Shown piece after piece: positions 9,913 to 35,300 of a DNA stretch of 52,949 bases. The stretch covers positions 1 to 52,949 of IMG/VR virus record IMGVR_UViG_3300031841_001392; one strand, given 5' to 3'. The stretch comes from a virus. A model generated the notes under the pieces. It made no database searches, was not told the origin of the DNA, and saw nothing but the letters and a program-made list of their open reading frames with translations. Every line of letters starts with the position of its first letter. The stretch's first letter is position 1. A program made the position numbers and the translations under genes.

Positions 9913-10964
9913 TGTTTGCCCTCCTTAATGAGTTGCATCGCGTACTGTTCATTGGTAAGCCCGATTCGCTTGGCGAGAGCAATCTGGCTGGACGTTAGCC
10001 GTACTTTGCGCGGTTTGGCACCATTGCTCCTTGAGGAGGGTGCCACCACCGACGAGGGCTGATTAGCAGTCACGGGCGCGTTACGTCCATATGTATCGCT
10101 AGAGTCCTGCCAATCATAATCTGGGAATGCACTACGCATTCTTGAATCTATTCGTTGAAAATATTCAGGAGAGTTTGGTGCGACACCCTCCTGAACAGCT
10201 TTAGCATGAGCGCCGTAAGCAAGGCTTGTCATTTCTTCAAACCCCGGCTTCATAAACCACTCATTGCGAGAAGCCCAGTCTTGGGCCTCTGGCTCAACAG
10301 AGGGTTGTTGCGCCTGCTGCTGCGCTACAGCTTGTTCTCTTGCAAGCTGCTGCTGATAAACCTGTTGTTGATAAGCGTCATCCGCTACCGTGACAGGCTT
10401 GTTTGCGAGGCTTTGCTCATACTTACTGGCCTCTTGAAGCTCAGACTGCGCTCTCATTAAGCTTTCCTGAGCGGCAACTACGTTATCCGTATCACCCTCT
10501 TCGTAAGCTTTCTTGTACTCCTGCCTAGCAGATTCCAATGATAACTGAGCTTTGTCTTTAATCTGGCTGATCAAGGCCGCTTCACCGCGATTGATCAAAG
10601 ATTCATACTCTTTGTTCTTTGCGGTAACCGCTTGAGCGTAACTCACAGCCTCTTCACGAAGGCGCTCTGCCGCTTCTCGCTGTCGGCGCTCCTCGTTTTG
10701 TTCGTACCTAAGCTTGTTTATTCGCTTCTGTACACGCTCACTGTACCCAGAGAGTTCATCGTCATCGATATCGCTATCTGACGAACTAGCCTTTGGTGCG
10801 CGACGATCCTCTTCTGGGCGATCATCAACAATCTCTAACTCTAAGTCAGGATCAGTGATCGCCTCTTCGTTATCTGATGAGCGACCAATAGTTGTCTTTA
10901 CGCCGAAAAACTTATCCTCGGCTGAAGACTCTTGGAATCCCATCTCTTCTTGCATTTCGCTCAT
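9909..10964 (-). CDS. Putative scaffolding protein (351 aa)
   Basis: Acidic N-terminal third (residues about 1-75, many Asp/Glu), then a long predicted coiled coil rich in Glu/Gln/Arg/Ala (about 80-215), then a basic C-terminal region (SRSNGAKPRKVRLTSSQIALAKRIG) that could bind the inner shell. This order is typical of phage scaffolds that direct capsid assembly and are then lost. It lies two genes before the capsid gene, after the GroES-like gene, and overlaps both neighbours by 4 nt. No protease domain is visible. Confidence 0.75.
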   Translation of the reverse strand: MSEMQEEMGFQESSAEDKFFGVKTTIGRSSDNEEAITDPDLELEIVDDRPEEDRRAPKASSSDSDIDDDELSGYSERVQKRINKLRYEQNEERRQREAAERLREEAVSYAQAVTAKNKEYESLINRGEAALISQIKDKAQLSLESARQEYKKAYEEGDTDNVVAAQESLMRAQSELQEASKYEQSLANKPVTVADDAYQQQVYQQQLAREQAVAQQQAQQPSVEPEAQDWASRNEWFMKPGFEEMTSLAYGAHAKAVQEGVAPNSPEYFQRIDSRMRSAFPDYDWQDSSDTYGRNAPVTANQPSSVVAPSSRSNGAKPRKVRLTSSQIALAKRIGLTNEQYAMQLIKEGKQ

Positions 10965-11356
10965 ACCTTAACAATCCCCCTTGGATCTTCTACAACGGCT
11001 TCAACGCTATCGTCATTAATCAAACGGAACTCTTTGTCGTGAACCTTGAATCGTGTGCCAGAATAAGACCGCATTAAAATGAAGTCGCCTTCTTTGCAAG
11101 ACGGGCCGGATGGAAACCGCTGTGAGTCGCTGTATGCGTCTGGGCCTAATGCTAAGACCAGACCGACAATAGAGCCTACCTCTTCGTTGTGCAGGGTTTC
11201 AGTGGCTTTCAGTATGCCACCAGCCGTCTTTTCTTCAGGTTCAGGTAAAGCAATAAGTATTTTGTAACCTCTGGGTTGAGGCAACTGTTTTGCTTTGCGT
11301 GACTGCTCATCCCCTTCGGGGGCTGCGTCATCGTTAATTGCTAATGATTCGCTCAT
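10961..11356 (-). CDS. groES: GroES-like co-chaperonin (Cpn10)
   Basis: From an ATG at 11356 the protein has about 131 residues. The Cpn10 core begins at RGYKILIALPEPEEKTAGGIL, continues with a mobile-loop-like stretch (LKATETLHNEEVGSIVGLVLALGP) and ends with the beta-barrel strands KEGDFILMRSYSGTRFKVHDKEFRLINDDSVEAVV. Phage GroES homologues (T4 gp31, CocO) cap host GroEL so that it can fold the phage capsid protein. No GroEL gene is seen here, so host GroEL would be the partner. A start at 11401 is also possible but lacks as good a ribosome site as TAGGACTACTA before 11356. Co-located with scaffold, capsid and portal genes. Confidence 0.85.
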   Translation of the reverse strand: MSESLAINDDAAPEGDEQSRKAKQLPQPRGYKILIALPEPEEKTAGGILKATETLHNEEVGSIVGLVLALGPDAYSDSQRFPSGPSCKEGDFILMRSYSGTRFKVHDKEFRLINDDSVEAVVEDPRGIVKV

Positions 11357-11404
11357 TAGTAGTCCTATGCACTGGAAAAAAGCGTCCAGAGTCGCTTGCA
11401 CCGC

Positions 11405-14081: not shown

Positions 14082-14393
14082 CTATCCATTCTTCCCAAAC
14101 TTTTGAGAACGAGCAGCACCAGAGCCTCTGGCAACACCGCCGCCTTCCATCTTCTTGATTTTGGTGACACCGCCTGCTGCGTACATCTTTGAACTCATAC
14201 GCATCTTATTTGGCATGTTGTTTGGCATCTTTCCGCCAGCTTGGGCAAGAAACGCAGGAACCATTTCGCCGTCTTTTTCTGCCATCGGCATTTTGCCGCC
14301 ACCAGCATAGCCCTTAGACTTCATTTTGCCGCCACCGGCATAGCCTTTGGACTTCATCTTACCGCCAGCCATCATTCCTTTAGACTTCTTCAT
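14082..14393 (-). CDS. Gly/Lys-rich repeat protein (103 aa)
   Basis: From the ATG at 14393 (ribosome site GCGGAGGATTCCG) it starts MKKSKGMMAGGKMKSKGYAG, with two exact MKSKGYAGGGK units, and ends GGGVARGSGAARSQKFGKNG. The C-terminal pattern (RGxGAAxxxKFxxNG) is one I recall from many marine phage small proteins, similar in style to the tail of the 96-residue protein at 5929-6219. The start lies inside the end of the 229-residue gene (14-nt overlap). Low complexity suggests a flexible linker or a virion glue; no function is known. Confidence 0.65.
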   Translation of the reverse strand: MKKSKGMMAGGKMKSKGYAGGGKMKSKGYAGGGKMPMAEKDGEMVPAFLAQAGGKMPNNMPNKMRMSSKMYAAGGVTKIKKMEGGGVARGSGAARSQKFGKNG

Positions 14394-15069
14394 CGGAATC
14401 CTCCGCATATAAATTATCAAAAACCCTGTTCACATCCAGCGTGTAATCCAAATCCGACTTGCTGTAATGAATATGTTGAGACGGGCGAAAATCTGGTGCG
14501 CCCTCTCCTGTTTCAAACCAAGCTGGGTGAGTCACCCTAACTCGATTATTCGGTAACGCTACTATGTTCCCTGTATACGGGCCTGCCTCTAGTAGCTCCA
14601 TCACATGACTCTGCTTGTGTTGTGCGGGGTCATCTGCAATTTCGTTGTCTGTGTAGTCTACAGTAAACATGTACTTAGCAGGGTAGAACTCTCCGTCCAC
14701 CTTTGCCAGCCACGGACAGGGTGATGCCCTCTCCAACACATATACCGAATGATCCCGTGATGAGCAATCCCAAGGTTGCGCTGCATATACAGGCATCGGC
14801 TCAGGCCATTCCTCAAAAGGTGTGTCGCCTACCAGTGCGGTGATTGGCATTCTTGCCCACATCGCCCCGCCATGAACATTGGGTTCGTCGGTGTCGTATG
14901 TCTCTGCACCAGTAAATATCAACTGAAAACTCAGGCATCGCTTTGGCATTGTCGTGACAGCAATTGCCATCGCGTGAACAAATTCACCGTGATACTTAGT
15001 GTGATTGTGCGTGTATTCTTTTCTCACCCAGCACTTAAAGTACGGGATGTTGCTTTGAAGATATGGCAT
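14380..15069 (-). CDS. Conserved hypothetical protein between terminase and portal (229 aa)
   Basis: A mixed alpha/beta protein with many aromatic residues (IPYFKCWVRKEYTHNHTKYH, GAMWARMPITALVGDTPFEEWPEPMPVYAAQPWDC, YPAKYMFTVDYTDNE). I recall the same protein type in this position in uncultured marine phages, without a known role. It starts directly after the 63-residue gene stop and overlaps the next gene by 14 nt. No catalytic motif was seen. Being tied to terminase and portal, it may assist packaging or portal assembly; this is inference. Confidence 0.68.
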   Translation of the reverse strand: MPYLQSNIPYFKCWVRKEYTHNHTKYHGEFVHAMAIAVTTMPKRCLSFQLIFTGAETYDTDEPNVHGGAMWARMPITALVGDTPFEEWPEPMPVYAAQPWDCSSRDHSVYVLERASPCPWLAKVDGEFYPAKYMFTVDYTDNEIADDPAQHKQSHVMELLEAGPYTGNIVALPNNRVRVTHPAWFETGEGAPDFRPSQHIHYSKSDLDYTLDVNRVFDNLYAEDSDEEV

Positions 15070-16782: not shown

Positions 16783-16923
16783 AGGAATATTCCCGTCTAG
16801 GAAGATTCCTCTCTCATGTATATACCTAAAATAATCATGTATCTGCCGTGGGGGGCACCTTCCTAGTAGGAATCTTCCTAGTAGGAATCTTCCTTACTCG
16901 GCATATTCCTAGAGAGAGGAATA
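16783..16923. repeat. Array of AGGAATATTCCT-like palindromes (site cluster 1)
   Basis: Imperfect copies occur at 16783-16794 (AGGAATATTCCC-like), 16799-16810 (AGGAAGATTCCT) and, as two identical AGGAATCTTCCT copies 15 nt apart, at 16868-16879 and 16883-16894. Half sites lie at 16903-16910 and 16917-16923. A second cluster of the same motif is at 26637-26701. This looks like binding sites for one protein. Confidence 0.6.
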
Positions 16924-18890: not shown

Positions 18891-19058
18891 ATGGAAGAAC
18901 GTGTTGATCTTGAGCGGGGGCGCGTGTCGTTCCTAGACCTTGCCACTGGGCAGGTTGAATACACTGGCAACGTGCATGCTGTTTCAGTATGCGTCGTTCC
19001 TAACTTTGACCGCTTCGAGGATTTCGAGGCTTGGGTTGACGATCTACTTTCCAACTGA
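18891..19058 (+). CDS. Hypothetical early protein (55 aa)
   Basis: ATG at 18891, two nt after the previous stop; the protein begins MEERVDLERGRVSFLDLATG and ends with an acidic helix (FDRFEDFEAWVDDLLSN). It is acidic, in contrast to the Arg-rich first protein. Its last codons fall in the first copy of the 69-nt leader repeat. No family recognised; length and spacing are in keeping with the neighbouring small genes. Confidence 0.5.
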   Translation: MEERVDLERGRVSFLDLATGQVEYTGNVHAVSVCVVPNFDRFEDFEAWVDDLLSN

Positions 19059-19117
19059 TGAGTGCTGGATGGTAACCAGCCGAAACCGCGCAGGAGGCGC
19101 GGTCTTGGAAAACCAAT
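19049..19117 (+). repeat. Leader repeat, copy A, with a ribosome-site hairpin
   Basis: About 69 nt from TTCCAACTGA to AAAACCAAT, repeated at 19301-19367. It contains the hairpin ACCGCG-CAGGAGG-CGCGGT (19085-19103), which shows AGGAGG in the loop. Confidence 0.6.
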
Positions 19118-19130
19118 CGGGAGTTTGTAA

Positions 19131-19247
19131 ATGACAGACCAACAAATCATCAGCCTGTTTGATTCTTCAAACATCACGCTGCGGGAGCTGGCAGCAATTA
19201 GTGGGCGCTCAATCGCTCAACTAAAAACCTTGCTGATGGGGGCTTAA
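19131..19247 (+). CDS. Small helix-turn-helix-like peptide (38 aa)
   Basis: ATG at 19131 after CGGGAGTTTGTAA; the peptide is TDQQIISLFDSSNITLREL followed by AAISGRSIAQLKTLLMGA. The pattern (helix, T-LRELAAISGRSIAQLKTLL) looks like a minimal helix-turn-helix as in resolvase or Xre DNA-binding segments. It might bind DNA as a dimer, but at 38 residues this is tentative. A further 15-codon frame (19251-19298) follows and is probably not a gene. Confidence 0.45.
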   Translation: MTDQQIISLFDSSNITLRELAAISGRSIAQLKTLLMGA

Positions 19248-19300: not shown

Positions 19301-19367
19301 TTCCAACTGACGAGGCTGGGTGGTTCTCAGCCGAAACCGCGCAGGAGGGCGGTCTTGGAAAACCAAT
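19301..19367 (+). repeat. Leader repeat, copy B
   Basis: About 67 nt, same order as copy A; one base lost in the stem still leaves ACCGC-GCAGGAGG-GCGGT. It lies directly upstream of the MoxR-type gene, 24 nt before its ATG. Confidence 0.6.
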
Positions 19368-19390
19368 ACAACAACTTGGAGTGACATACT

Positions 19391-20563
19391 ATGTCCATTA
19401 ACGCATCAAAGGTCAGCCCTTCGCAGGCCTCAGAAATGCTGCTGGCACACGCCATCAGTCAACTATCTGGCGGCAAGCGCCACAAGCCCGTGTATCTCTG
19501 GGGCACCTACGGCGTTGGCAAATCATCCATCGTCAAACAATTGATCACCAAGCTTAGCGCCCACTTTGATAAGCCTGTCGGCTTGCTAGATGTTCGCCTG
19601 TCACAGTTTGACGCAGTCGATACTCGCGGCATCCCGTACATTCGTGACCAGCGCGATGCGCTCGATACGGTGGGTAATGACGAGATTGCTGGCATGAGTG
19701 ACGAGGTAAGACGCGCTGCCTATCAGCTATTGTCGGCTGGGCCATCGAAGACTACCGAGTGGTCTACGCCATCATGGCTGCCCAATGTGGCGCGTGACGG
19801 CGAGTTCGGCATCCTGTTCTTGGATGAGATACAGCTTGCATGCCAGTCGGTCAAAAATGCTGGCTACCAGTTGCTTAATGAGTTCCGCTTGGGCGACTAC
19901 ATCTTGCCTGCTGGCTGGTTTGTCATTGCCGCATCCAACCGTCCCAATGACGGCGCTGGTGTGTCTGGGCGTATGGATGCTGCTGTGAGCACCCGCTTTA
20001 AGTATCACTTAGATGTTATGCCATCCGCTGCTGAGACCACCGATTACTTCCAAGATATTGGGGTTCGCCCAGAGGTAATCGCGTTCCTGAAGTTTCGCGG
20101 TGAGGCTGTCGGTGATCAGGCCGGACTCATTCATGAGTTCCCTAATGGCGGCACCGCAAAGGACAAGGTTGCCATCGCTACCCCGCGAACATGGGAATCT
20201 GTCAGCGACATCCTTGACGATGGTATGGCGGCTGATCTGGAGCACATCGCCATTGAGGGCGCTATCGGCGCTGGCGCTGCTGGCGAGTTTGTCGCCTTTC
20301 TCCGCACCATGCGTAACCTGCCAGACATCAACTTGTTTCTGTCAGATCCGCACAACGTGCCACTGCCCAATGAGATCACCACTCAGTATGCAGTGACCGC
20401 TGCGCTGGCTGCGCGGGTGACCGCCGACAACCTTGGCAATGGCGTGACCGTTGTGTCCCGCATCAACAACGAACTGCTGGAGGTGTTCTGGATACTGGCA
20501 ACGCGCCGTGACCCAGACCTTAAGGCTTCACCTGAGTATGTCGCCCACAAGGCAACGTACTAA
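19391..20563 (+). CDS. MoxR-type AAA ATPase
   Basis: A 390-residue protein with a single AAA domain: Walker A GTYGVGKSS at about 38-46, Walker B GILFLDEIQLA at about 141-151 and a sensor 1 VIAASNRPND at about 178-187. MoxR proteins act with VWA-domain partners as chaperones that remodel or activate protein complexes. Here the VWA partner is two genes downstream, in the same operon. Ribosome site TTGGAGTGACATACT precedes the ATG. A UUCG hairpin follows the stop. Phage versions are known from genomes, but their target is not. Its position after small early genes suggests a host-takeover or anti-defence role; this is inference. Confidence 0.85.
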   Translation: MSINASKVSPSQASEMLLAHAISQLSGGKRHKPVYLWGTYGVGKSSIVKQLITKLSAHFDKPVGLLDVRLSQFDAVDTRGIPYIRDQRDALDTVGNDEIAGMSDEVRRAAYQLLSAGPSKTTEWSTPSWLPNVARDGEFGILFLDEIQLACQSVKNAGYQLLNEFRLGDYILPAGWFVIAASNRPNDGAGVSGRMDAAVSTRFKYHLDVMPSAAETTDYFQDIGVRPEVIAFLKFRGEAVGDQAGLIHEFPNGGTAKDKVAIATPRTWESVSDILDDGMAADLEHIAIEGAIGAGAAGEFVAFLRTMRNLPDINLFLSDPHNVPLPNEITTQYAVTAALAARVTADNLGNGVTVVSRINNELLEVFWILATRRDPDLKASPEYVAHKATY

Positions 20564-20570
20564 ACCCAAC

Positions 20571-20586
20571 AGGGGCTTCGGCCCCT
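20571..20586 (+). terminator. UUCG hairpin between MoxR gene and next gene
   Basis: GGGGC-TTCG-GCCCC is a perfect 5-bp stem with a stable tetraloop, flanked by an extra A-T pair, and followed by TCCACCTTATTTATTTT. Weak T-tract, so partial terminator or mRNA stability element. Confidence 0.5.
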
Positions 20587-20615
20587 CCACCTTATTTATT
20601 TTGGAGTAAATACCT

Positions 20616-21491
20616 ATGGACAAGATCCAGAACAACGCAATGCTGATCGCCGCGACGATCAAGAAATTCTCAAACAGCCGCAAAGACACCAGCATATCTG
20701 CTGAGGTTGCCGCGACTAAGAACGCCAACCCCAAGGTCATTACCGTGACCAAGAAACTGCTCGACGCACCCGCCGTTAAGGCACTCAACCGTATCGCTGG
20801 GCAGCTTCGCAACTCAGTGCTCAACCCCCTGACCATGCCTTGGGAAGACGGTGTGCGCCTGATCACCGTTGACCAGATCGAAACATTCGAGGCTGAGTGG
20901 GACAAGAAAGTAGACCGCGCTGAAGAGCTAAAGCGCGAGGTCATTACCGAGTGGCCCAACATACTCAAACGTGCCAAGAAAGACCTTGGTGATTCTTTCG
21001 ATATCTCAGAGCTACCCAGTGCTGAGTTTGTCGCTGGCAGTTACCAATTCAGCTACATACTACGCGCCATGCCCGACTCCGGTGATATCAGGGTCAACCT
21101 GCCTGCCGACAAGATCGCCAAGATCAAGGCTCAGGCCGAGTCCGATATCAACAAGCGCGTCGAGTCTGCTGCTGAGTCTGTGCATGAGCGCGTGATCGAC
21201 ACCTTGCAGTCTCTGGTTGACGGCCTAGAGCGGCACGGTAGCAAGCCTGCTGGTGCCAAACGTGCAAGCAAGTTTGCAGATACTACTGTCGAGAATATCG
21301 AGAAGCTTGCTCAGGTTTTGCCTTCACTCAACATTACCGGCGACCCCAAGCTTACGCAGGCAAGCAACGCTATTCTGTCTCAGCTTAACGGCCTAGATCC
21401 TCAGCGGCTGCGCGACTCTTCGAGTGAGCGTCAGGCTGTTGCCAACAAGGCCAAGTCGATTGTCGATAACCTCACTGGCCTTTGGGATTAA
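20616..21491 (+). CDS. Unknown helical protein between MoxR and VWA genes (291 aa)
   Basis: A 291-residue, mainly helical protein starting MDKIQNNAMLIAATIKKFSN. It has charged coiled-coil-like stretches (IETFEAEWDKKVDRAEELKREVITEWPNILKRAKKDLG, AKIKAQAESDINKRVESAAESVHERVIDTLQSLVDGLE). It sits between the ATPase and VWA genes with similar TTTGGAG ribosome sites, suggesting it belongs to one complex, for example as an adaptor. No family was recognised. Confidence 0.68.
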   Translation: MDKIQNNAMLIAATIKKFSNSRKDTSISAEVAATKNANPKVITVTKKLLDAPAVKALNRIAGQLRNSVLNPLTMPWEDGVRLITVDQIETFEAEWDKKVDRAEELKREVITEWPNILKRAKKDLGDSFDISELPSAEFVAGSYQFSYILRAMPDSGDIRVNLPADKIAKIKAQAESDINKRVESAAESVHERVIDTLQSLVDGLERHGSKPAGAKRASKFADTTVENIEKLAQVLPSLNITGDPKLTQASNAILSQLNGLDPQRLRDSSSERQAVANKAKSIVDNLTGLWD

Positions 21492-21504
21492 CGGAGAAAT
21501 ACTT

Positions 21505-22836
21505 ATGTCAGCGTTAAACATTATGTTGAAAGCTCGACGGCGCATGCTGCGCGAGTTTCCATACTTTGGCTTCCGACTGCATCAGCTACTGCTGGTGCCG
21601 TCAACCAAGACCTCTACGATGGCAACCGATGGAAAGGCTATCTACTTCAACGAGAAGTGGGTGCCTGAGCAGTACGCCATCCACGGTTACAAGTTCATCA
21701 TGACCGTACTGGCTCATGAGATCATGCACGTTGATGGGTTCCATCACCTGCGTAAGGGCAGCCGTGACCACAAGCTTTGGAATGAGGCCGCCGACTACGC
21801 CATCAACTACGCGCTAGTGCGTGAGGGCTTTGAGGTTCACGATGGCCTGTACAGCACCGACTACATTGGCAAGTCTGCCGAACAGGTGTACACCATCCTC
21901 GAAAGCCAGCGCAGCACTGAGGCCGACAAGCCCAGCACTGGCAACGGTGGCGCTGACGATGATGACTCAGGCGATGGCGCTGCCGATGGGGATGCCCCTG
22001 ATCAAGGCGACAACGGCTCTGAGGGCGGCCCTGACGGCGATACTGGCGATGCTGGCGACACTGGCACCTCTGGTGACGGCGACGGCCCTGCTGACCCTGA
22101 CGCGCCTTGGGGCGAAGTCTGGGAAGGCACCAACAATGACGGCACCCCGATGTCTGCTGACCAGAAAGCTTCTGTGCAGCGCGAGATCACCAGCCAGATA
22201 TTCGAAGCTGCCAAGGCTCAGGATAAAATCAAGGGCAAAGGCGAGGGCCGAGGCGCTGCTGTTGACCAGATCATCAGTGGCGTATCCGGTGACCCAGTCC
22301 CTTGGTTCGAGCATCTCAAGGATGCGTTCTCCGACTATGTTCTGACTGAGCACACCTTTGCTCGACCAGAGCGCCGACTGCTCTCGCAGGGCATGATCTT
22401 GCCGACGCAGGAGCGTGAGCCTAACGGCGAGCTTGTTGTGTCGGTAGACACCAGCGGATCAATAGGCCAAGACGAGCTAGACGCTATTGCAGGCCATGTG
22501 CAGGACATCATTGATGAGATCAACCCGATCAAGACTGTGGTGATCTACTGCCACCATGTCCTCTGCGGCGTTGAGGAGTTTGATCGGCATGAGGATCTAA
22601 CGCTCAGGATTCCTGAGACTGGCGGCACGGCATTCAACCCACCGTTCAACTATGTTGCGCGTGAGGGCTTGGAGCCATGCGCGATGATCTACTTCACCGA
22701 TGGCTGGGGTGACGTTGGGCCAGACGGCTGGCACGACTTCAGTGAGCCTGACTATCCGGTGATCTGGGCAACGACAGACCGTGAGCCTTTCTTCGCTGGG
22801 TGCGAACCCTTCGGTGAGGTGATACGGGTTACATAA
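21505..22836 (+). CDS. Zincin-like metallopeptidase fused to a VWA domain
   Basis: From the ATG at 21505 (site CGGAGAAATACTT) the protein has 443 residues. N-terminal domain: LAHEIMHVDGFHHLRKG with the HExxH motif at residues 71-75 and a following conserved HKLWNEAADYAINYA, as in the DUF2201-type putative metallopeptidases. An acidic Gly/Asp linker spans about 149-205. The C-terminal VWA domain has a MIDAS motif DTSGS at 315-319 and a later YFTDGWG. Such zincin-VWA proteins pair with MoxR ATPases. It probably binds metal in both domains; whether it is a peptidase is unproven. A longer frame start at 21424 overlaps the previous gene and is less likely. Confidence 0.82.
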   Translation: MSALNIMLKARRRMLREFPYFGFRLHQLLLVPSTKTSTMATDGKAIYFNEKWVPEQYAIHGYKFIMTVLAHEIMHVDGFHHLRKGSRDHKLWNEAADYAINYALVREGFEVHDGLYSTDYIGKSAEQVYTILESQRSTEADKPSTGNGGADDDDSGDGAADGDAPDQGDNGSEGGPDGDTGDAGDTGTSGDGDGPADPDAPWGEVWEGTNNDGTPMSADQKASVQREITSQIFEAAKAQDKIKGKGEGRGAAVDQIISGVSGDPVPWFEHLKDAFSDYVLTEHTFARPERRLLSQGMILPTQEREPNGELVVSVDTSGSIGQDELDAIAGHVQDIIDEINPIKTVVIYCHHVLCGVEEFDRHEDLTLRIPETGGTAFNPPFNYVAREGLEPCAMIYFTDGWGDVGPDGWHDFSEPDYPVIWATTDREPFFAGCEPFGEVIRVT

Positions 22837-23975: not shown

Positions 23976-24360
23976 GGTTTTTGATAGCCCACCTACAACT
24001 GTGTTTTGCATCACCACTGGCACACATAACACCGCTATTGGTAACGGCGCTGGTAACGTAGCGACGGGTACTTACAACACGGCTATAGGTGACCAGCGGT
24101 ATCAGTTCCTACAGGCTGTTTTTGATAGCCACCCCCAAGCCGGACAGAAAATACACCAAGGGTCACAAAAACATTTCTGTCGGTGATAAAAATATTTATG
24201 TCGGTAGTACCGGACAGACAGACACCCCTATGGGGTGGTGTCTGTCTGTCCGTCCTGACTGGTTTATATATTCCTGCTCAGTCGGCAAGACCACAGGTAT
24301 CTACAACACACCTATAGGTGCTATGTGGAATAAGGCTTTGCGGGGTTTTTTGATAGCCAG
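23976..24360 (+). repeat. Imperfect repeats with fibre-like coding remnants
   Basis: TTTTTGATAGCC occurs three times (about 23978, 24119 and 24346). TACAACAC-CTATAGGTG occurs near 24072 and 24301, about 229 nt apart. One frame at 24016-24095 reads TTGTHNTAIGNGAGNVATGT then YNTAIGD, the Hep_Hag/YadA head signature, and another near 24290 reads KTTGIYNTPIG. No long frame survives, so this looks like decayed or recombined fibre repeats, on the opposite strand to the fibre gene. Confidence 0.55.
24211..24252. terminator. Large hairpin with 16-bp perfect stem
   Basis: CGGACAGACAGACACC (24211-24226) pairs perfectly with GGTGTCTGTCTGTCCG (24237-24252) across a 10-nt loop (CCTATGGGGT), which itself can pair in part. 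It lies between two converging transcription units. It lacks a T-tract on either side, so a bidirectional terminator is plausible but not certain. Confidence 0.5.
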
Positions 24361-24418
24361 TTATTCGCTACCAACTTTCCAACTTTTTACGCGAATGTGC
24401 GTAAGTTGCTTGTGGTTG

Positions 24419-24850
24419 CTAAACCGAATCTAGGACGGTTGTCAGAGTCTCTATGTCAGACAGCGAGTCGGTTGGCTTGTCCTCTACTATCATCAGGTAG
24501 GTCAGGGAGGCTGCATGCTCCCCAAATTCTTTTGCAATTCTTTTGAACGTGCGACTGAGCATCAGGATTTGTTCGTTGCGATTTCCCCGATGCCCACCAC
24601 TGTGCGTAGCGGTCATGTCTGGACTCTTGAGGTAAACGCCAGCCTGAACAGCTTGCGAAAGTATTCTCTCGGCAGCTTGGTGGTGCCTAATCGTTATGTA
24701 TTTCTTGAGCAGTAAATGATCAATGAATGTCTGGTCAGCAACACGGGCGCGGCCTATACCGCTATCGGATTCCTCCAAGGCGATGACATGGCGGCGGTGG
24801 AGTGCCGCCGTGCCAATGTCGTTAACCTTAGATTTCAACGTCCCACTCAT
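24419..24850 (-). CDS. Hypothetical protein after primase-helicase (143 aa)
   Basis: Starts MSGTLKSKVNDIGTAALHRR and is largely helical: FIDHLLLKKYITIRHHQAAERILSQAVQAGVY, then GNRNEQILMLSRTFKRIAKEFGEHAASLTYLMIVEDKP. The start overlaps the primase-helicase stop by 23 nt. The pattern HHQAAERIL..A...AG resembles small regulator or replication-linked proteins in alphaproteobacteria and their phages (DUF6456-like), but this is only a recollection. It is the last gene of the leftward replication group. Confidence 0.6.
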   Translation of the reverse strand: MSGTLKSKVNDIGTAALHRRHVIALEESDSGIGRARVADQTFIDHLLLKKYITIRHHQAAERILSQAVQAGVYLKSPDMTATHSGGHRGNRNEQILMLSRTFKRIAKEFGEHAASLTYLMIVEDKPTDSLSDIETLTTVLDSV

Positions 24851-26636: not shown

Positions 26637-26701
26637 AGGAATATGCCCAGCTTGGAACATTCCTTAAATAATTAGGAATCTTCCTGAACAGGAATATTCC
26701 T
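26637..26701. repeat. Array of AGGAATATTCCT-like palindromes (site cluster 2)
   Basis: Copies: an AGGAATATGCC-like site at 26637, GGAACATTCC (26654-26663), AGGAATCTTCCT (26674-26685) and a perfect AGGAATATTCCT (26690-26701). They overlap the end of the RHH-like gene and lie upstream of the primase-helicase gene. Same motif as in the gap between terminase genes. Confidence 0.6.
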
Positions 26702-27732: not shown

Positions 27733-28038
27733 ATGTTCAAGATCGAAGACAGTCCTAAGCCACCCTCGAAAGAATCTCTATTGAGGATTGAGGTTATGGA
27801 GACCATAGCAGCGTTGAAGGCCGGTCAGCACTTTGATGTGCCTTATGACTACGAAGGCCTTGGCAAGGTTCGGGTTGTGAGCTGTGTCAACAACTACGTC
27901 AGCCAGTTCAGAATTGGGCAGGGTAAAGACTGTCCGTTCATTTACAAGGTCACTAACTGTAAAAAGGAAAAAGGCGGGTACTCTCGCGTTTCCATGCACA
28001 AGTGGCACAAAGTTCTACCACAACACGAAATACGATGA
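27733..28038 (+). CDS. Winged-helix-like small protein, paralogue 2 (101 aa)
   Basis: Start chosen at the ATG 27733 because it follows CAGGAGTGCAAT, nearly identical to the site before the annealing-protein gene at 29397; the frame is open upstream to 27511, but that part is a shadow of the preceding gene. Core: IAALKAGQHFDVPYDYEGLG, VSCVNNYVSQFRIGQGKDCPF then KVTNCKKEKGGYSRVSMHKW, parallel to paralogue 1. The stop overlaps the nuclease ATG (ATGA). Function unknown, possibly nucleic-acid binding. Confidence 0.65.
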   Translation: MFKIEDSPKPPSKESLLRIEVMETIAALKAGQHFDVPYDYEGLGKVRVVSCVNNYVSQFRIGQGKDCPFIYKVTNCKKEKGGYSRVSMHKWHKVLPQHEIR

Positions 28039-28916
28039 AGATTACTAACCAGTTCAACCTCCCTGATGTCGTTGTGGATGCATTGCTGCAAGATGATTAC
28101 ACCAAGGGCAGGTCAAACAGGTCTGTTACAAGCCTTATCGACAGCCCCCGTGTAGCGATATTGCAGCGCAATAACGAACACCGGATAGAGCAGGATGTCG
28201 TGGATTTCCTGTGGTCTCGGTTCGGCACATCTGTTCACGGCATGTTTGAGAAGGCGGTAGCCAACAATGAGCATGCCAACGTGATATCAGAGGAACGCAT
28301 GTACGCCGAGGTCAGGGGTTGGACGATTAGCGGTGCTGTTGATTTGCAGGAAGTGTATGACGATGGCGTACTGATCAGCGACTACAAAGTCACATCAGTG
28401 TGGTCTGTCATTCATGACAAGACTGAGTGGCACAATCAACTGAACGCATATGCTTGGCTTGTTCGCTGGTCTAAAGATTTACCAGTCAAGGGGCTAAGGA
28501 TCATTGCAATCCTGCGTGATTGGCAGAGGCGTAAAGCCCAGATGGAGGCAGACTACCCTAAGTCGCCAATCCATATTGTCGAGATACCCTTGTGGTCAGA
28601 GGACGATGCCGACAAGTACATACGAGGACGGGTGAGGCTTCATCAGGAGGCTGAGTACGACTATCTGGTCAGTGGCAGCGATCTACCGGCCTGTACAGCC
28701 GCTGAGAGATGGGAGAAGCCAACTACCTATGCTGTACTCAAAAAAGGCCGTAAACGGGCTGTGCGCGTTCTGACAACGAGAGAAGAAGCTGAGGCCTACA
28801 TCGAACCACTTGGCACAGGCCATGCGATAGAGGAGAGGCTTGGTGAGTCAACCCGATGTTCGCAAGACTGGTGCCGTGTAGCGAGGTGGTGTGATCAATT
28901 TCAAATGGAGTCTTGA
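28035..28916 (+). CDS. RecB/Cas4-like PD-(D/E)XK nuclease
   Basis: From the ATGA-coupled start at 28035 it has 293 residues. RecB-family motifs: GTSVHGMFE (H68, E72), SGAVDL (D103), ISDYKVT (D116, K118) and NQLNAYAWL (Q near 135). A C-terminal region has Cys residues (C-x-AAERW; CSQDWCRVARWC), suggestive of a Cas4/AddB-like metal cluster, although not all four Cys positions are certain. It probably resects DNA ends to provide single strands for the annealing protein encoded two genes later, a Red-alpha-like role. Moderately sure of exonuclease versus endonuclease activity. Confidence 0.82.
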   Translation: MKITNQFNLPDVVVDALLQDDYTKGRSNRSVTSLIDSPRVAILQRNNEHRIEQDVVDFLWSRFGTSVHGMFEKAVANNEHANVISEERMYAEVRGWTISGAVDLQEVYDDGVLISDYKVTSVWSVIHDKTEWHNQLNAYAWLVRWSKDLPVKGLRIIAILRDWQRRKAQMEADYPKSPIHIVEIPLWSEDDADKYIRGRVRLHQEAEYDYLVSGSDLPACTAAERWEKPTTYAVLKKGRKRAVRVLTTREEAEAYIEPLGTGHAIEERLGESTRCSQDWCRVARWCDQFQMES

Positions 28917-29103
28917 GTTGGAAACAGAAAAAGGAAAAGTGAAGTTGGAGGCGACTTACAATAGTGATAACCGCCAGCTAACAGTGGTAGTAAACCCGAT
29001 AGATCCAGACACAGTGTCTGAAGCGGTCTATGAGTTGTTGAATTGGTGCGAGGGTTTCCTGCACGAAAAGATCACCAAGATTGAGGGCTTGGGTGATGAT
29101 TGA
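28891..29103 (+). CDS. Hypothetical protein (70 aa), GTG start
   Basis: GTG at 28891 inside the end of the nuclease gene (26-nt overlap). The protein starts MINFKWSLELETEKGKVKLE, with two strand pairs and a C-terminal helix (VSEAVYELLNWCEGFLHEKI). It overlaps the next start by 8 nt. Small beta-beta-alpha protein of unknown function within the recombination operon. Confidence 0.58.
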   Translation: MINFKWSLELETEKGKVKLEATYNSDNRQLTVVVNPIDPDTVSEAVYELLNWCEGFLHEKITKIEGLGDD

Positions 29104-29377
29104 GTCCGACAAGCCAACCTACGAAAAGATGGTTGCCGTGTTTCAAATTACGCAGATCCCTGCGCTACAGATGGCGATAAGGGGTGATCAGGCTTCGTTC
29201 AATTGGGCTAAGGGTTTTCTCTTTGGGTTTCCAATGAGTCAGTTCTACCAGCTTGAGCCGATTGAGATCTCTAACATACTAGAAGCTGCGCTTGAGGAGC
29301 ATTACGGGGTGCCAAAGCGGCACTACAGAAATAAATTAACGGGGTTCAGTAAAGACCCATTCAGTTCACAAAACTAA
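29096..29377 (+). CDS. Hypothetical protein in recombination operon (93 aa)
   Basis: The start at 29096 (ATGATTGAG, overlapping the previous stop) is preferred over an in-frame upstream start at 29081. It begins MIESDKPTYEKMVAVFQITQ and contains SFNWAKGFLFGFPMSQFYQLEP, helical with several aromatic residues. No family recognised. Context: between the nuclease and annealing-protein genes. Confidence 0.58.
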   Translation: MIESDKPTYEKMVAVFQITQIPALQMAIRGDQASFNWAKGFLFGFPMSQFYQLEPIEISNILEAALEEHYGVPKRHYRNKLTGFSKDPFSSQN

Positions 29378-29396
29378 TCCATAGCAGGAGTGCAAC

Positions 29397-30119
29397 ATGG
29401 AAAATGACGTATCGCTAGGCGATATCTGGGCCACCCTTTACCCAGTGAAATGCAACGAGTTTGCAAAGAAGAAAAACGGGTTGACCTATTTGGCTTGGAA
29501 CGAGGCTTGGCGGCTGCTCATGAGCCACTACCCTACCGCTCATTACGAGTTCGGGGAGAACGAGGTTCATGCTGATGGCTCGCAAACAGTTCACTGCACA
29601 GTAGCTATCGCAGGCCATGCACGGCACATGTGGTTGCCGGTCATGGACTACAAGAACAAGGCTATACCTAACCCCAACGCCCGTGATGTCAGCGACACAA
29701 AGATGCGCTGCTTGGTTAAGACCATTGCAATGTTCGGGCTAGGGTTCCATATATTTCAAGGGCAGGTTCAGCCTGAAGACACATGGGACGATTCCACAGA
29801 AGAGGCGAAAGAAGACAAGCCCGTCGCTGAAAAGCCGGTTGCCAAGAAGCCTGCTGCAAAGAAGCCAGAGCCAGAGTTTGACGATGATGACTTCTTTTTC
29901 ACCGATACTCAGGAGGGTGCAGACCACTGGGTAGATCGGTTAATCGAAACGGTGAACGGGCTGGTGGAGACCAAGAAGGGTCTACGCAGTATCTGGGATG
30001 GAAATAAGAAGGCGGTGGACAAGCTACAGGCTGAGTACCCCGAATCTTACAAACGATTGGCTGACGTTATGAAAGCCAAGCAAGACGAACTAAAGAAGAA
30101 GGAGTCCGAAAATGGATAG
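29397..30119 (+). CDS. Sak3-like single-strand annealing protein (DUF1071-like)
   Basis: 240 residues. The N-terminal 125 residues match the DUF1071/Sak3 annealing proteins: EFAKKKNGLTYLAWNEAWRLLMSHYPTAHYEF, later MDYKNKAIPNPNARDVSDTKMRCLVKTIAMFGLGFHIF. A Lys/Ala/Pro linker (about 135-160, EKPVAKKPAAKKPEPE) leads to a helical C-terminus. It anneals complementary single strands produced by the upstream nuclease, driving recombination and concatemer formation. Start follows AGCAGGAGTGCAAC; the stop overlaps the SSB-like gene by 8 nt. Confidence 0.8.
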   Translation: MENDVSLGDIWATLYPVKCNEFAKKKNGLTYLAWNEAWRLLMSHYPTAHYEFGENEVHADGSQTVHCTVAIAGHARHMWLPVMDYKNKAIPNPNARDVSDTKMRCLVKTIAMFGLGFHIFQGQVQPEDTWDDSTEEAKEDKPVAEKPVAKKPAAKKPEPEFDDDDFFFTDTQEGADHWVDRLIETVNGLVETKKGLRSIWDGNKKAVDKLQAEYPESYKRLADVMKAKQDELKKKESENG

Positions 30120-30438
30120 TCAATATCCCAAGGGTGAAGGTGGGTTGTGGATGCACGACAAGAAGAACGAAAAGCATCCGGATATGCGAGGTCATATCTA
30201 TGTGTCGAGAGACCAGCTTAAGTTGTTGTTGGAGATGGCAAAGGACAACCAAGCGAACCCAGACCCAGAGTTTAAGCTCAAGGTTGATATCGCTATGTGG
30301 AACCGTGTCGCCAAGGATACTGGGCGAGAGTACAAGTACCTCAGCACGGAGGTCTACAAACCAAAGCCAAAGCAGGTTGAGCCACAATCTGACTTCGGCG
30401 GCATGGACGATGGGCTAGACGAAGATATACCGTTTTAG
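30112..30438 (+). CDS. SSB-like protein with acidic C-terminal tip (108 aa)
   Basis: Starts MDSQYPKGEGGLWMHDKKNE; a compact beta core (GHIYVSRDQLKLLLEMAKDN, FKLKVDIAMWNRVAKDTGREYKYLSTEVYKP) precedes a linker and the end GGMDDGLDEDIPF. The DEDIPF tail copies the acidic tip that bacterial SSB uses to recruit repair proteins. The core has the length and strand pattern of a small OB fold, but this is not certain. It follows the annealing protein by overlap (8 nt), as annealing proteins and SSBs often work together. Could be an SSB or an SSB-tip mimic of the host. Confidence 0.68.
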   Translation: MDSQYPKGEGGLWMHDKKNEKHPDMRGHIYVSRDQLKLLLEMAKDNQANPDPEFKLKVDIAMWNRVAKDTGREYKYLSTEVYKPKPKQVEPQSDFGGMDDGLDEDIPF

Positions 30439-30446
30439 GGGGTCGC

Positions 30447-30728
30447 ATGGGTTTGATAATAGAGATTGACGAGAAAACTCGTATTACCACAGATCGGTTC
30501 AACTGGATTGTGCAAAAGCATGTTGGTAGTAACTGGGCAAGCAAAAGCTACCATCGCAGTTACAAAGACGCTTTGAGGCAGATGACTGAAGACCAGATCT
30601 TGAACAGCAATGCCGGTGACCTGCAAGAGTCCATTGAGCGAGTCGAGGACATCATTGATCAGCTAGTCGATATGCACAAAGACCTGTTGGTGCATCCCAG
30701 TGATCAGAAGCTTGCTGATGCGTCTTGA
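30447..30728 (+). CDS. Hypothetical protein (93 aa)
   Basis: Starts MGLIIEIDEKTRITTDRFNW and has two parts: beta-rich TTDRFNWIVQKHVGSNWASKSYHRSYKDALRQM and a helical ESIERVEDIIDQLVDMHKDLL. I recall similar TDRxNWxxQ proteins in marine phage recombination modules, without a function. It has a GGGGTCGC site 9 nt before ATG and an 11-nt overlap with the next gene. Confidence 0.62.
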   Translation: MGLIIEIDEKTRITTDRFNWIVQKHVGSNWASKSYHRSYKDALRQMTEDQILNSNAGDLQESIERVEDIIDQLVDMHKDLLVHPSDQKLADAS

Positions 30729-31119
30729 TATCAAGGGTTCTGGTGTCGGTGAAGCACTGGGGCCGATATGCGCCCTAGTGCCTAACCGTAGCGCCGAGAT
30801 TATGGATTTGTTTATGCGCTGCAAGAAGGGCTTGGTCATTGAACTAAAGCCCTTGCAGAAGGGCAGGAGTCGCAACCAAGAGGGGTATTACCGTAAGTGG
30901 TGTGCGGCGTTTGCAGATCACTGCGGAATGACACCTGATGAGATGCATGAGGAGATGCTTTGCATGACCTTCGGCAGCGTTGAGGTTGAGACCAAGTTTG
31001 GTATGCGCCGTAGGCCAGTGACTCGCAGCGGAGAGACCAACACAGCAACATACTCACGGTTAATAGATAACCTGATCAACACCGCTGCTGATATGGACTT
31101 TAGGGTGCCACCGTCATGA
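30718..31119 (+). CDS. NinB-like recombination protein (133 aa)
   Basis: ATG at 30718 (a GTG at 30700 would add six residues). The core LVIELKPLQKGRSRNQEGYYRKWCAAFADHCGMTPDEMHEEMLCMTFG followed by VETKFGMRRRPVTRSGETNTATYSRLIDNLINTAADMDF is like the NinB family (lambda ORF), which replaces RecFOR functions and binds single-stranded DNA in recombination. It sits between SSB-like and nuclease genes, a fitting context. Ends overlap both neighbours. Assigned by pattern; moderately sure. Confidence 0.68.
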   Translation: MRLDIKGSGVGEALGPICALVPNRSAEIMDLFMRCKKGLVIELKPLQKGRSRNQEGYYRKWCAAFADHCGMTPDEMHEEMLCMTFGSVEVETKFGMRRRPVTRSGETNTATYSRLIDNLINTAADMDFRVPPS

Positions 31120-31532
31120 GGCCTACATATGAGACAGACCAAGACGTTGAGTACGAGAAGCATGTTGCGGATGTGTTTGCAGAAAAGCACGGTATGACTT
31201 GGGTCAGAAACCCTGTGAAGTACCCGATAGACATTAGCTTTATGCGGGGCAATGAAATTGTCTTGTTTGCCGAGATAAAGTGTCGAAAGGTAAACAAAGA
31301 CACCTACCCGACATACATGATATCTGTGTCGAAGGTTATGGCTGCTAGGGCATTAACAGACGCAACGGGTGTAGAGTGCCTACTGATTGTGAAATGGAAA
31401 GATAATGCTGGTTGGATAAACCTGAACAAAGATCCTGACAGTGTAGGGTTTGGTGGTCGGGTAGATCGTAACGACAGTCAGGATATGGAGCCTGTTGTCT
31501 ATTACAACATCATCCGGTTTAAGGATTTTTGA
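31116..31532 (+). CDS. Small PD-(D/E)XK nuclease (138 aa)
   Basis: Starts MRPTYETDQDVEYEKHVADV. Catalytic pattern: E13 in the first helix, D39 (YPIDISF), E53 and K55 (FAEIKCRK), followed by a helix with the late SKVMAARALTDATGVECLLIV strand. This is the core of VRR-NUC, Hjc-type and very-short restriction-like nucleases. Start is ATGA-coupled to the NinB-like gene. It could process branched DNA or host DNA; the second nuclease of the module besides the RecB-like one and RusA. Confidence 0.75.
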   Translation: MRPTYETDQDVEYEKHVADVFAEKHGMTWVRNPVKYPIDISFMRGNEIVLFAEIKCRKVNKDTYPTYMISVSKVMAARALTDATGVECLLIVKWKDNAGWINLNKDPDSVGFGGRVDRNDSQDMEPVVYYNIIRFKDF

Positions 31533-32080: not shown

Positions 32081-32300
32081 GGAAAGTGTTGAAGAGTTCC
32101 TTGCCCGTGGTGGCAAGATACAGGAAGTGCCTTTTGGCGAAATTACCATCAAAGATCCAAAGCTCGGCAACCATGGCCCAAGCAAAGTAACTGCTCAGGC
32201 GCACATAAGAGCTAGTCAAAAGCGTGAGCAGAAGAAAGACAAAGCCAAATCCAAGGTTAAGGTGTTTGGGTTCAACAGGCCCAGCCCTAAAAAAGATTAG
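32073..32300 (+). CDS. Hypothetical basic protein (75 aa), GTG start
   Basis: GTG at 32073 after AGGAGATGTCTG. The protein contains SVEEFLARGGKIQEVPFGE, a motif I recall in small phage proteins, then a long Lys-rich region (KREQKKDKAKSKVKVFGFNR). Its 3' end overlaps that of the converging giant gene by 14 nt. Function unknown; basic tail suggests nucleic-acid binding. Confidence 0.62.
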   Translation: MSKESVEEFLARGGKIQEVPFGEITIKDPKLGNHGPSKVTAQAHIRASQKREQKKDKAKSKVKVFGFNRPSPKKD

Positions 32301-35300
32301 ATATCCTGTTAGCTATAGTCTCTGTTGCCGTGGGCAGTTCTATATATCTTTCTAGCTGCGGGACGATGCTCAGATAGTACTGCTCTTGAGTATTGATAAA
32401 TCTCATCTGCTCCTGCTTCTGATCTGCCGTCAGGTCAGACTTCAACAACGTTCTACGCTGCTTCCTGAGATCTGCAAGCGCACTGGCTGTAGGCTGTAGC
32501 TGCTTCCTCAGACCTATGAATTGCTTTTTATTTACCAAGAAACTCTCAAGCTCATCAAACCTACCTTGGTCTTGCAGAAGCTTGGCTGCGTTCTCGGTAC
32601 GCTTAATGTAGTCCCACATCTCGTAGAAGTCTTCTTTGTTACCGCCACCAAACTCACTGGCAAAGAATCTTCGTATGATCGGATACTGAGAGACATCGGT
32701 TCCAGCAAGCACCGCTCTGTTGTCTCCTTGAAGAAAGCTGTCTCTCAATCCGTAATCAGCCATGCCCAAGATATAAGATCCAATCGTGCCGCCATAACCT
32801 TTCATCAAATGATCTAGTTTGATCGGGCTGATGCCCAAGACCTTCGCCATATTCTTGGCAACCTCCGTTGTAGAGGCAAGCTCTTGAAGCTCTGGTGGCA
32901 ATGATGAATCTATAAATACGGGAGTTACAGGCCTGCCTGTATAGAGGTCGTAGTTCATGTACGCCTCCATAATTGGAGTTACTGCCTGTGGAGGCTGAAC
33001 ACCAAGCGTTCCAAACACTGCTCGGCCTATTGATTGCTGCGCCTCTCTGGCGGTGGTGCCTTCGTTGTAAGAGTCAATGATCCGCTCAGGCAGCGTCTTG
33101 AAAATAAGGCCAACCTCAAACGGGATTGGAATTCTAACCGGCACACCAGACGGTGTTGGTATAAGCCAGTAGTTGTCTTTTATTTCTTCGGTCTGCTCTT
33201 TGTACTGCTCATCATCACTAACCATTGTGTAGTAAATGGCTGTGCTCGCAGCTATCAAAGATCCTCTGGCGATAAAGCTCATGGCTGCCTGAGAGCGTGA
33301 CAAGTCTCTGTTGGCAGAGCTTTTGCCTGTACCGGCCCGTGCAAGGACATCTAAGCCTTGTATCCTAGCGTTCAAGAAAGGAATCGTTGCTGTAACCAAA
33401 CGCATAACAGGGCTGCTGCCACGGCGACCAAAGTTCAACACTTCCATCGCTTGATAGCTGGCTTCTGCCTCATTACCTGTACGGGCTAATACATCGTTGT
33501 AAACAGCGTTTCTAGTAGCAGCGTCTGAGCGAGTTGTCGCTTGACCAAGAAGATCCCAACCGCCGATAAAGAATTTACTAAGAAGCCCTCTTTGATCTAC
33601 ATTCTTGTTTCTTTTTTGAAGTATCTTTCCTGCGTACTCGCCAATGTTTTCTGGGTCATTCTTGTAGTCATAACCGCCTACAACACCTGTCCTCTCAAGC
33701 TTCTCCATTCCTTCAGCGTAACCAGCAATGGTATCGGCTATTGGCACAAAGCTAGACCCAGAAGTGACGAATGCAGACAGCGAGTCACGCAGCATGTTTG
33801 CAATAACAAACCCCGGCTCCCGTGTAACCATCTCTCGCAAAAAACGGGATGGGAAACCCAGTATCTTAGAAACTTCACGCTCTACACCACCAGCAGGCTC
33901 AACAGTCAACGACTCATATATTAACGGGTCATCAACAATGAACTTACGTCTATTGCCGTTGACTTTGAAGGTGACAACAGCCTCGCCTGTAGTGTTCTGT
34001 CCCGGCTTGACCTCTCTTGCTAGGCCAATGTTTCTCATATCCCTGACAATGCGTTGCTGGGCAACATTCTTCATGCCCATGCTAATCGCTGCGTTCAGGT
34101 TCATGGATATTGCTTCCAAGAGCGGCACGTTAACTTCTTTTTCGCTGCCTTTGATTGCCTTTAGGTCTGCGCTTGCAGTCAGGCCGCCAAAGATGTTCGG
34201 CGCGTTTGGAGTGTCGGCACCTTCTACTTGACGATAGAAAGGCACATAGTCTGACTGGTCTTGCCACATCTCTGCGGTCTCTGCATCAACAACACCCGTA
34301 TCTTTGAGAAACTGAACGGTGTAGCCGTTGTAGTCTTGCCAAGCGTCATACCAGTCCTTGATTATTGAATTGCCATTCTCATCCAAGAAAGACTCTGCGG
34401 TTGCAATGTTAGCTGCATGATCCGCCGGGGTTCCCGGTACAGCTATGCCTTTTGCTCGCAAACGCTCGGATCTCTTAGCTATTGAGTAGGCCTGAGCCAT
34501 TTGCTCAAGAGACCCATGCTCCTTGGTGTACAGCATGGACATCAAATCTATGAGGCCTCTAATTTTTTTGGTTTCGCCCCGACTGTTGGTGTGGTTGAAA
34601 TCCGCTATCTTGGTCATACCGCCTGTGTACACAGGGACACCGTACTGAAGAGCGGCTGCGGTTATCGCATTAGATCTGTCAGCCATCAGAGCGGCAGCCA
34701 AAGACGATGAGTCAGCAAGCAAGTTGCCAAGCATGCCTTGGTAGTTTTCTAGCTGGGCATACCTATTGACCGCTGCCTGTTTAGCCTTGGTCAACCACTT
34801 GGCTATCGGCCCTTGATCTAAGACGTTGAGATAGGTCTGTCCGGGGGTATTCGTGGGTAGGTCTGCAACAACATTGTCTATTGCAGCCTGAGCAGCGGGG
34901 TTTATCTCTGGCGCGTTAGACCTAGAGAATGCAGGCATTTCACTATCTGAAAGCTCTTGGCCTTTGTCTGGGTCGGCTGCTACAGCTTGTGCATATCGGT
35001 CTGCGCCGGGATTAAACCGTGGCACCGTGCCTGCGGGACGATTCTCTGCTATTTGTAGATTGTCAGCTACAACACGGTCAACTTCGCTTTGACCTATGAC
35101 CTCTCTGCGCTTGTATTTATCAAGCAGGTTGAATGGAAGCCCTACGTCTTCAGTCTGTACCTCTCTGGCAGCATCGCCTCTTCCTCTGCGCCTAGAGGCT
35201 GAGTCGGGTCTCGGTCTGGGTACGCCGCCATCAGATAGTTTTCTCTCGTAAGTGGCTGCTTGGTCGCCTTCAGGTATCCCTCCGTCAGATCGTTCCCAGT

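Follow-up and report, generated by a model that had tools for sequence, protein, structure and literature searches.

Pairs of a MoxR-type AAA+ ATPase and a von Willebrand factor A (VWA) domain protein are already known, and in N4-like phages (Schitoviridae) an ATPase and an adjacently encoded DUF2201 zincin-VWA protein are a core gene pair (PMC7650795, PMC4193335), represented in N4 by the middle genes gp24 and gp25 (PMC4193335). Group 2.2 jumbo phages encode the same ATPase with a metallopeptidase fused to vWA, for which no third subunit has been described and a role in virion assembly was proposed (PMC7824862). A third conserved protein accompanies MoxR and vWA in the ternary conflict systems (VMAP, iSTAND, FtsH or beta-propeller; PMC7159879), and pCAR1, IncC and related plasmids and integrative and conjugative elements (ICEs) encode a motor, a DUF3150-type protein and a VWA protein together (PMC2642839). 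In this study we analysed a 52,949-nt stretch of DNA that is from a marine phage (IMG/VR virus record IMGVR_UViG_3300031841_001392, positions 1 to 52,949; hereafter the window), in which three plus-strand genes encode an AAA+ ATPase (P1), a helical protein (P2) and a zincin-VWA protein (P3). An initial annotation had reported these genes at 19391-22836, where all three open frames are present; its statement that their role in a phage is unknown overlooked the N4-like core pair and the jumbo-phage proposal, and it missed two hammerhead ribozymes just 5' of P1. We found that P1, P2 and P3 are a conserved module of phages that also occurs on plasmids. We consider it about an even call that they make up a three-component protein-remodelling machine which acts in the infected cell, in the early or middle phase, on a complex encoded by host or element, and is not a virion part.

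Linkage and conservation of P1, P2 and P3

IMG/VR was scanned with P2 and with P3 and the results were reduced to non-redundant lineages, the counts of which hold among the matches listed, are biased by the search seeds and are not frequencies in nature; the trio survey covered IMG/VR and plasmid records. P1 and P3 were present in the same stretch, always on one strand and with a median span of 3.7 kb, in 43 of 45 P2 lineages, so that the three-gene set proposed in the initial annotation proved to be a conserved module. Gene orders were P1-P2-P3 (29), P2-P1-P3 (12) and P1-P3-P2 (2), and linkage retained despite such change is evidence for a functional set. Among 67 P3 lineages, 43 had all three genes and 21 had P1 and P3 alone; independent occurrence, which the initial annotation had held to speak against a module, was therefore not seen for P2 and was seen for the P1-P3 pair. 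A more sensitive P2 model detected no hidden P2 in 26 of 27 loci lacking it, and a fragment in one. In a P1+P3 tree of 99 loci, made by a quick method and with long branches present, P2 presence switches at least four times on well-supported branches and eight times by parsimony count. Because P2 is nearly always linked and P1-P3 often lack it, P2 depends on P1 and P3 and not the reverse. The pair without P2, as in N4 gp24/gp25 (24% and 25% identity), is on the evidence of these loci a common reduced form.

P1 matched Pfam AAA (5.6e-05) and PHROG 1297 (ATPase; 2.3e-59), and the Walker A (GTYGVGKSS), Walker B (LFLDE) and sensor 1 motifs were read as first described. Lys44, Asp145, the sensor-1 Asn183, Arg202 and Arg266 are invariant in an alignment of 13 phage and plasmid homologues, and a few P1 homologue copies have degenerate Walker motifs. 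The best profile match among solved structures was to the AAA modules of Midasin (2.6e-32), with NorQ, CbbQ and RavA also matched; membership of the MoxR/Midasin group follows from match rank, general AAA proteins matching too, and not from a tree of AAA clades. Since these closest solved relatives are all AAA+ partners of VWA proteins, we read the locus as encoding a machine, in which P1 would form a MoxR-type AAA+ ring serving as the motor.

The open frame of P3 runs from a GTG that overlaps P2 (21424-22836), and homologue alignments begin at the ATG at 21505. An N-terminal zincin-type domain (DUF2201_N, PF13203; 1e-28, 101.2 bits against a Pfam cut-off of 23.2) is followed by an acidic low-complexity linker (about residues 145-200) and a C-terminal VWA domain (DUF2201, PF09967; 1.7e-15, 57.6 bits against a cut-off of 26.4); in the predicted structure both domains are good and the linker is of low confidence. 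The HEIMH motif and the metal ion-dependent adhesion site (MIDAS; DTSGS) noted earlier are both present and conserved. Of 109 non-redundant, divergent homologues, 108 retain HExxH, 107 His80 and 108 Asp97, and every one has all five MIDAS residues (DxSxS...T...D). This strong conservation implies a need for metal chemistry as well as for metal-dependent binding. As the substrate adaptor, P3 would dock through the VWA domain that bears the MIDAS, and its zincin domain, a possible protease, probably cuts or grips the substrate. The MoxR-VWA chaperone interpretation of the initial annotation was thus right for P1 and P3. Many phage records, including the N4 gp25 record NC_008720.1, label the DUF2201 family as 'HNH endonuclease' or 'homing endonuclease', apparently a propagated misannotation; for P3 itself, an HNH endonuclease (PHROG 1314, several RefSeq records) was ruled out by a Pfam scan with strong DUF2201 matches and without HNH.

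MoxR-VWA pairs carry out metal-centre maturation in bacteria, and P1 and P3 could in principle belong to a cofactor- or metal-insertion machine like CobS/CobT, Mg-chelatase or NorQ/NorD, which would supply metal to an enzyme of the phage or its host. The VWA part of P3 aligned with VWA/I domains at Z of about 10-12 and an rmsd of about 3 Å over 129-157 residues, and its Foldseek matches include MDN1-MIDAS and, in favour of metal insertion, the VWA of NorD from NorQD complexes. P3 is, however, a DUF2201 protein with a zincin domain and not of CobT/NorD architecture, and the neighbour survey showed no recognisable recurrent oxidoreductase or cofactor gene, which makes such a machine highly improbable here.

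No Pfam or PHROG family matched P2. Its AlphaFold2 model (pLDDT 95.5, pTM 0.87; 55 aligned sequences) is mostly helical, as the initial annotation expected of this 291-residue protein, with some short strands. Foldseek returned no match below E 0.1 in the PDB, and the fold relatives there were set aside as generic helical bundles (Z up to 9, within the range expected of helical models); relatives among viral models were other phage proteins without assigned function, one of them named DUF3150. Comparison of P2 with five plasmid DUF3150 proteins by hhalign gave a probability of 94.8 (E 5e-8) over 146 N-terminal columns, against 0.2 in the control. The Pfam DUF3150 model (PF11348) matched none of 12 members of the P2 family up to E 0.1 and nothing in the trio-bearing records searched. 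Because this model fails and the profile comparison alone supports kinship, P2 is called a remote DUF3150 relative only, and filing it as DUF3150 was rejected, even though the record of Synechococcus phage MinM2 uses that name. Nor did the Pfam comparison give any match of the VMAP, iSTAND, FtsH or beta-propeller kind, so that by Pfam P2 is not the third protein of the ternary conflict systems, whose bpMoxR model scored 14.8 bits against a cut-off of 27.

The nearest complete counterparts are the MoxR-DUF3150-VWA genes of MinM2 and Planktothrix phage Pag-Yong1, in which all three genes occur in the same order (annotated in MinM2) and P2 is 25% identical over its full length; small genes are inserted among the three, and we did not find them described as a system in the literature searched. 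P2 would most likely be a target-recognition or docking subunit that can be lost, that is, a dedicated extra, target-facing component.

Table 1. Features of the trio locus and its leader in the window
Feature	Position	Strand	Evidence
P1, MoxR-type AAA+ ATPase, 390 aa	19391..20563	+	Pfam, PHROG, solved-structure profiles, motifs
P2, third subunit, 291 aa, remotely related to plasmid DUF3150 proteins	20616..21491	+	hhalign, linkage
P3, DUF2201_N zincin-type domain and DUF2201 VWA with complete MIDAS, 443 aa	21505..22836	+	
Hammerhead ribozyme (type I), P1 leader	19301..19369	+	covariance model, covariation, core
Hammerhead ribozyme (type I), upstream copy	19049..19119	+	covariance model, DNA repeat D2/D4
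Small open reading frame (ORF), 38 aa, between both ribozymes	19131..19247	+	read from sequence; candidate coding frame

Plasmid copies, genome position and possible role

P1-P2-P3 trios were also identified on plasmids of Burkholderiales and of Rhodovastum atsumiense (Acetobacteraceae), where they directly precede type IV secretion genes in two cases and have no virion genes nearby. In the P1+P3 tree the Burkholderiales copies are interspersed with those of phages and the Rhodovastum copy neighbours that of phage MinM2; these placements are subject to some doubt and suggest that the genes have moved between types of element. Copies on plasmids speak against a function confined to the virion and fit the modification of a host complex, one of the roles envisaged in the initial annotation.

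They bear most directly on the idea of a virion-assembly chaperone-protease, in which the MoxR-VWA proteins fold or process tail or internal virion proteins during morphogenesis. This role was proposed for the MoxR and metallopeptidase-VWA proteins of jumbo phages, and a MoxR-vWA pair has been linked, shown in part, to tail development of the archaeal virus ATV (PMC7824862). The 3,283-aa protein of the window phage might also need assistance of this kind. Since plasmids carry the same trio, a role common to phages and conjugative plasmids fits better than a virion-only one, and the strand of the trio, opposite to that of the late genes, likewise counts against assembly, to which we give a real but minor share of the probability.

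On pCAR1, IncC and other plasmids a parallel gene set encodes MoxR, a DUF3150 protein and a different VWA protein (annotated NorD-like or VWA); our P1-P3 models do not match pCAR1. The DUF3150 protein alone matched 1,139 plasmid records, five of which were inspected. An exonuclease and/or RecT/Bet gene lies within a few genes of the trio in four of these five regions, and on pCAR1 such genes are about 10-19 kb away; trios of this type are often near ssb/RecT/exonuclease genes. In the window, genes at 28002-31532, on the trio's strand, encode a PD-(D/E)XK exonuclease, a Sak annealing protein and a PDDEXK_14 endonuclease, a resemblance to the exonuclease and annealase genes found near DUF3150 trios on plasmids.

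Neighbours of this kind, on the plasmids and (the exonuclease and Sak) in the window, would suit counter-defence or host take-over, with a machine that takes apart or cuts a complex of host defence or repair; so would the occurrence of the trio in phages as well as in conjugative plasmids, since elements of both kinds encounter host defence when they enter a cell. Nothing linked the trio directly to a defence system, however, and YqaJ exonucleases occurred in 2 of 42 trio-related records, so that a general association with recombination exonucleases in phages was rejected. In SXT, deletions of bet, exo, s067, s068 and s070, which by position should include the locus, are reported to cut transfer at most tenfold (PMC2791158); from IncC gene order we infer that s067 and s068 are the DUF3150 and VWA genes. 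Counter-defence appears unlikely to us. Rts1 carries the corresponding trio genes (PMC2642839), which go unmentioned among the 32 genes needed for its conjugation (PMC10838148).

The terminase of the window is nearest to that of Pelagibacter phage HTVC027P (57% identity), which has no P2 in its whole record and no P1-P3 in its first 50 kb. An N4-like phage is not supported, because of this terminase and because the giant protein (32287-42138, minus strand) matches LPD38 and DUF7178 and not virion RNA polymerase; it is probably an internal virion protein of giant size or a polyvalent protein. Late genes (terminase, portal, head, tail) and primase/helicase are on the minus strand, and the trio heads a plus-strand unit between terminase and primase. 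This arrangement recurs: a homologous terminase (TerL) is on the minus strand in 22 related loci, mostly 5-6 kb before P3, and primase/helicase is on the minus strand in 37 of 38, mostly 3-6 kb past the P3 start. Eight AGGAAYNTTCC palindromes (0.12 expected; 16783-16893 and 26654-26701) occur only just upstream of the terminase and primase/helicase units, with none before the trio, and probably serve a single regulator as operator or promoter sites. The trio is probably under a control other than that of the late genes, because it lies on the opposite strand and the palindromes precede minus-strand units only. The early position claimed in the initial annotation is plausible given this strand, the adjacent primase/helicase and the middle-gene status of the N4 homologues, and early or middle expression may be inferred. 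Elsewhere in the window, short frames between trio and primase (24001-24433, plus strand) contain out-of-context NTAIG-type head-repeat fragments like those of trimeric adhesins or tail fibres, and a GroES-like co-chaperonin and a PHROG 'ferredoxin' protein are encoded within the head/packaging genes (10961-11401 and 14380-15069, both minus).

If the trio is a protein-remodelling machine, its target would be a nucleoprotein or membrane complex, encoded by host or element, that poses a problem common to phages and conjugative plasmids. Several observations weigh against this preferred interpretation. A natural pseudo-protease exists, as the P3 of one Paraburkholderia plasmid (L052:8911-10188) has lost HExxH (ALKVMQ) and keeps the full MIDAS, so that proteolysis may be dispensable. 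P2 is not universally needed, because P1-P3 pairs without it occur within the same phage lineage. N4-like roseophages encode four virion proteins near their gp24/gp25 homologues, which favours a virion role (PMC4193335), and sigma-70 promoters near the trio are no more frequent than in shuffles.

Hammerhead ribozymes in the P1 leader

A 54-nt DNA repeat 5' of P1 was recognised as a hammerhead core once relatives were aligned, with the layout CUGANGA, stem II, GAAA, stem III and GUC, and stem I formed from the flanks. Covariation strongly supports two tandem type I hammerheads. The P1-leader copy scored 85 bits with our covariance model and overlaps a match to Rfam RAGATH-1-hammerhead (E 0.0039; 30.3 against a gathering score of 56.3), and the upstream copy scored 94.7 bits and matched Hammerhead_1 (E 0.061; 19.3 against 34). 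Rfam at gathering thresholds gave no match in the leader, the gathering score being a curation threshold and not a structural feature; at a relaxed threshold the best two of 4,227 families were hammerheads, one per copy. The predicted cuts follow C19354, which would leave 36 nt ahead of the P1 AUG, and C19104, 26 nt ahead of the small ORF.

In a nine-leader alignment made by sequence only, 100% of stem cells are paired, four pairs are double-changed, compensatory changes are found in stems II and III, and shifting the pairing partner destroys the pattern. When both strands of 1.15 Mb were searched with the covariance model, 43 matches were obtained, every one on the strand of the trio, by which the loci had been oriented. 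In the alignment of these matches, which is fitted to the model, 97.7% of cells are paired and 13 of the 16 pairs, stem I included, show double-sided changes; cells with such changes numbered 139 against 33 in shuffles. Both core blocks, CUGANGA and GAAA, are present in 39 of 39 examined elements, and of the 38 whose cleavage site could be located, 37 have an NUH triplet there (30 being GUC). Hammerheads are not confined to the P1 leader: in one locus (L075) one precedes P3, in its leader, and another follows that gene, and in a second (L098) the P2 leader holds a weak one.

The P1-leader copy is followed by a hairpin, UUGG-AAAA-CCAA. In 29 of 39 elements the 3' strand of stem I, once freed, can pair with the following bases to form a hairpin of at least four pairs, about four such elements being expected from shuffles; the elements are related, so this comparison carries no probability value. 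Cleavage in vivo would split the P1 message from upstream RNA and leave a 36-nt leader, after which the freed strand would refold into a 5'-end hairpin that could stabilise the message or set translation.

An exact-pattern scan of IMG/VR yielded 102 stretches, of which 80 loci with 91 elements were read. A start codon lies 18-45 nt past the cut in 80% of the elements (13% at random positions), and 2% fall inside long same-strand frames (47% of random positions). Because trio genes are seen at only 18 of the 80 loci, the hammerhead is a leader element of general occurrence, shared by many phages. The gene most often downstream is P1 (18 of 90), in part because the scan pattern was drawn from P1 leaders. 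In IMG/VR stretches without the trio (L207-L284), near-identical hammerheads stand about 27 nt before the start codons of many small genes, and by sequence near-identical ribozymes precede many other marine phage genes.

Gene-flanking hammerheads were proposed, and partly shown, to process phage transcripts, and in haloviruses HF1/HF2 a ribozyme lies 13 nt before an early helicase gene with a mapped 5' end that agrees with the cut (PMC3088659). The leader elements described here are likewise intergenic, repeated and flanking phage genes; they differ in scoring below Rfam gathering thresholds and in that many have a hairpin competing with stem I.

Implications for phages and conjugative plasmids

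MoxR-VWA pairs, the ATPase with a metallopeptidase-VWA protein in N4-like and jumbo phages, and phage hammerheads were already known. Within the literature searched, what is new is a third subunit that depends on the other two and recurs in many phages and plasmids, its distant kinship with DUF3150, the correspondence of the trios of phages with those of plasmids, and a leader with tandem ribozymes. More speculatively, and with doubt outweighing belief on our part, P2-type proteins might be a general third subunit of MoxR-VWA machines. Phage DUF2201 and plasmid/ICE DUF3150 trios would then be two branches of one mobile-element ternary system acting on incoming or replicating DNA-protein complexes, with the phage mRNA trimmed by tandem hammerheads and stem I refolding into a protective 5' hairpin.

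The leader ribozymes add a large group of phage ribozymes missed by Rfam thresholds, and give a single-nucleotide prediction of mRNA processing. The ATPase/zincin-VWA pair is among the few N4-like core pairs without a known function. The trio, its dependent third gene and its plasmid copies replace a loosely defined 'phage chaperone' with a mobile-element machine that can be tested in two independent genetic systems, phage and plasmid.

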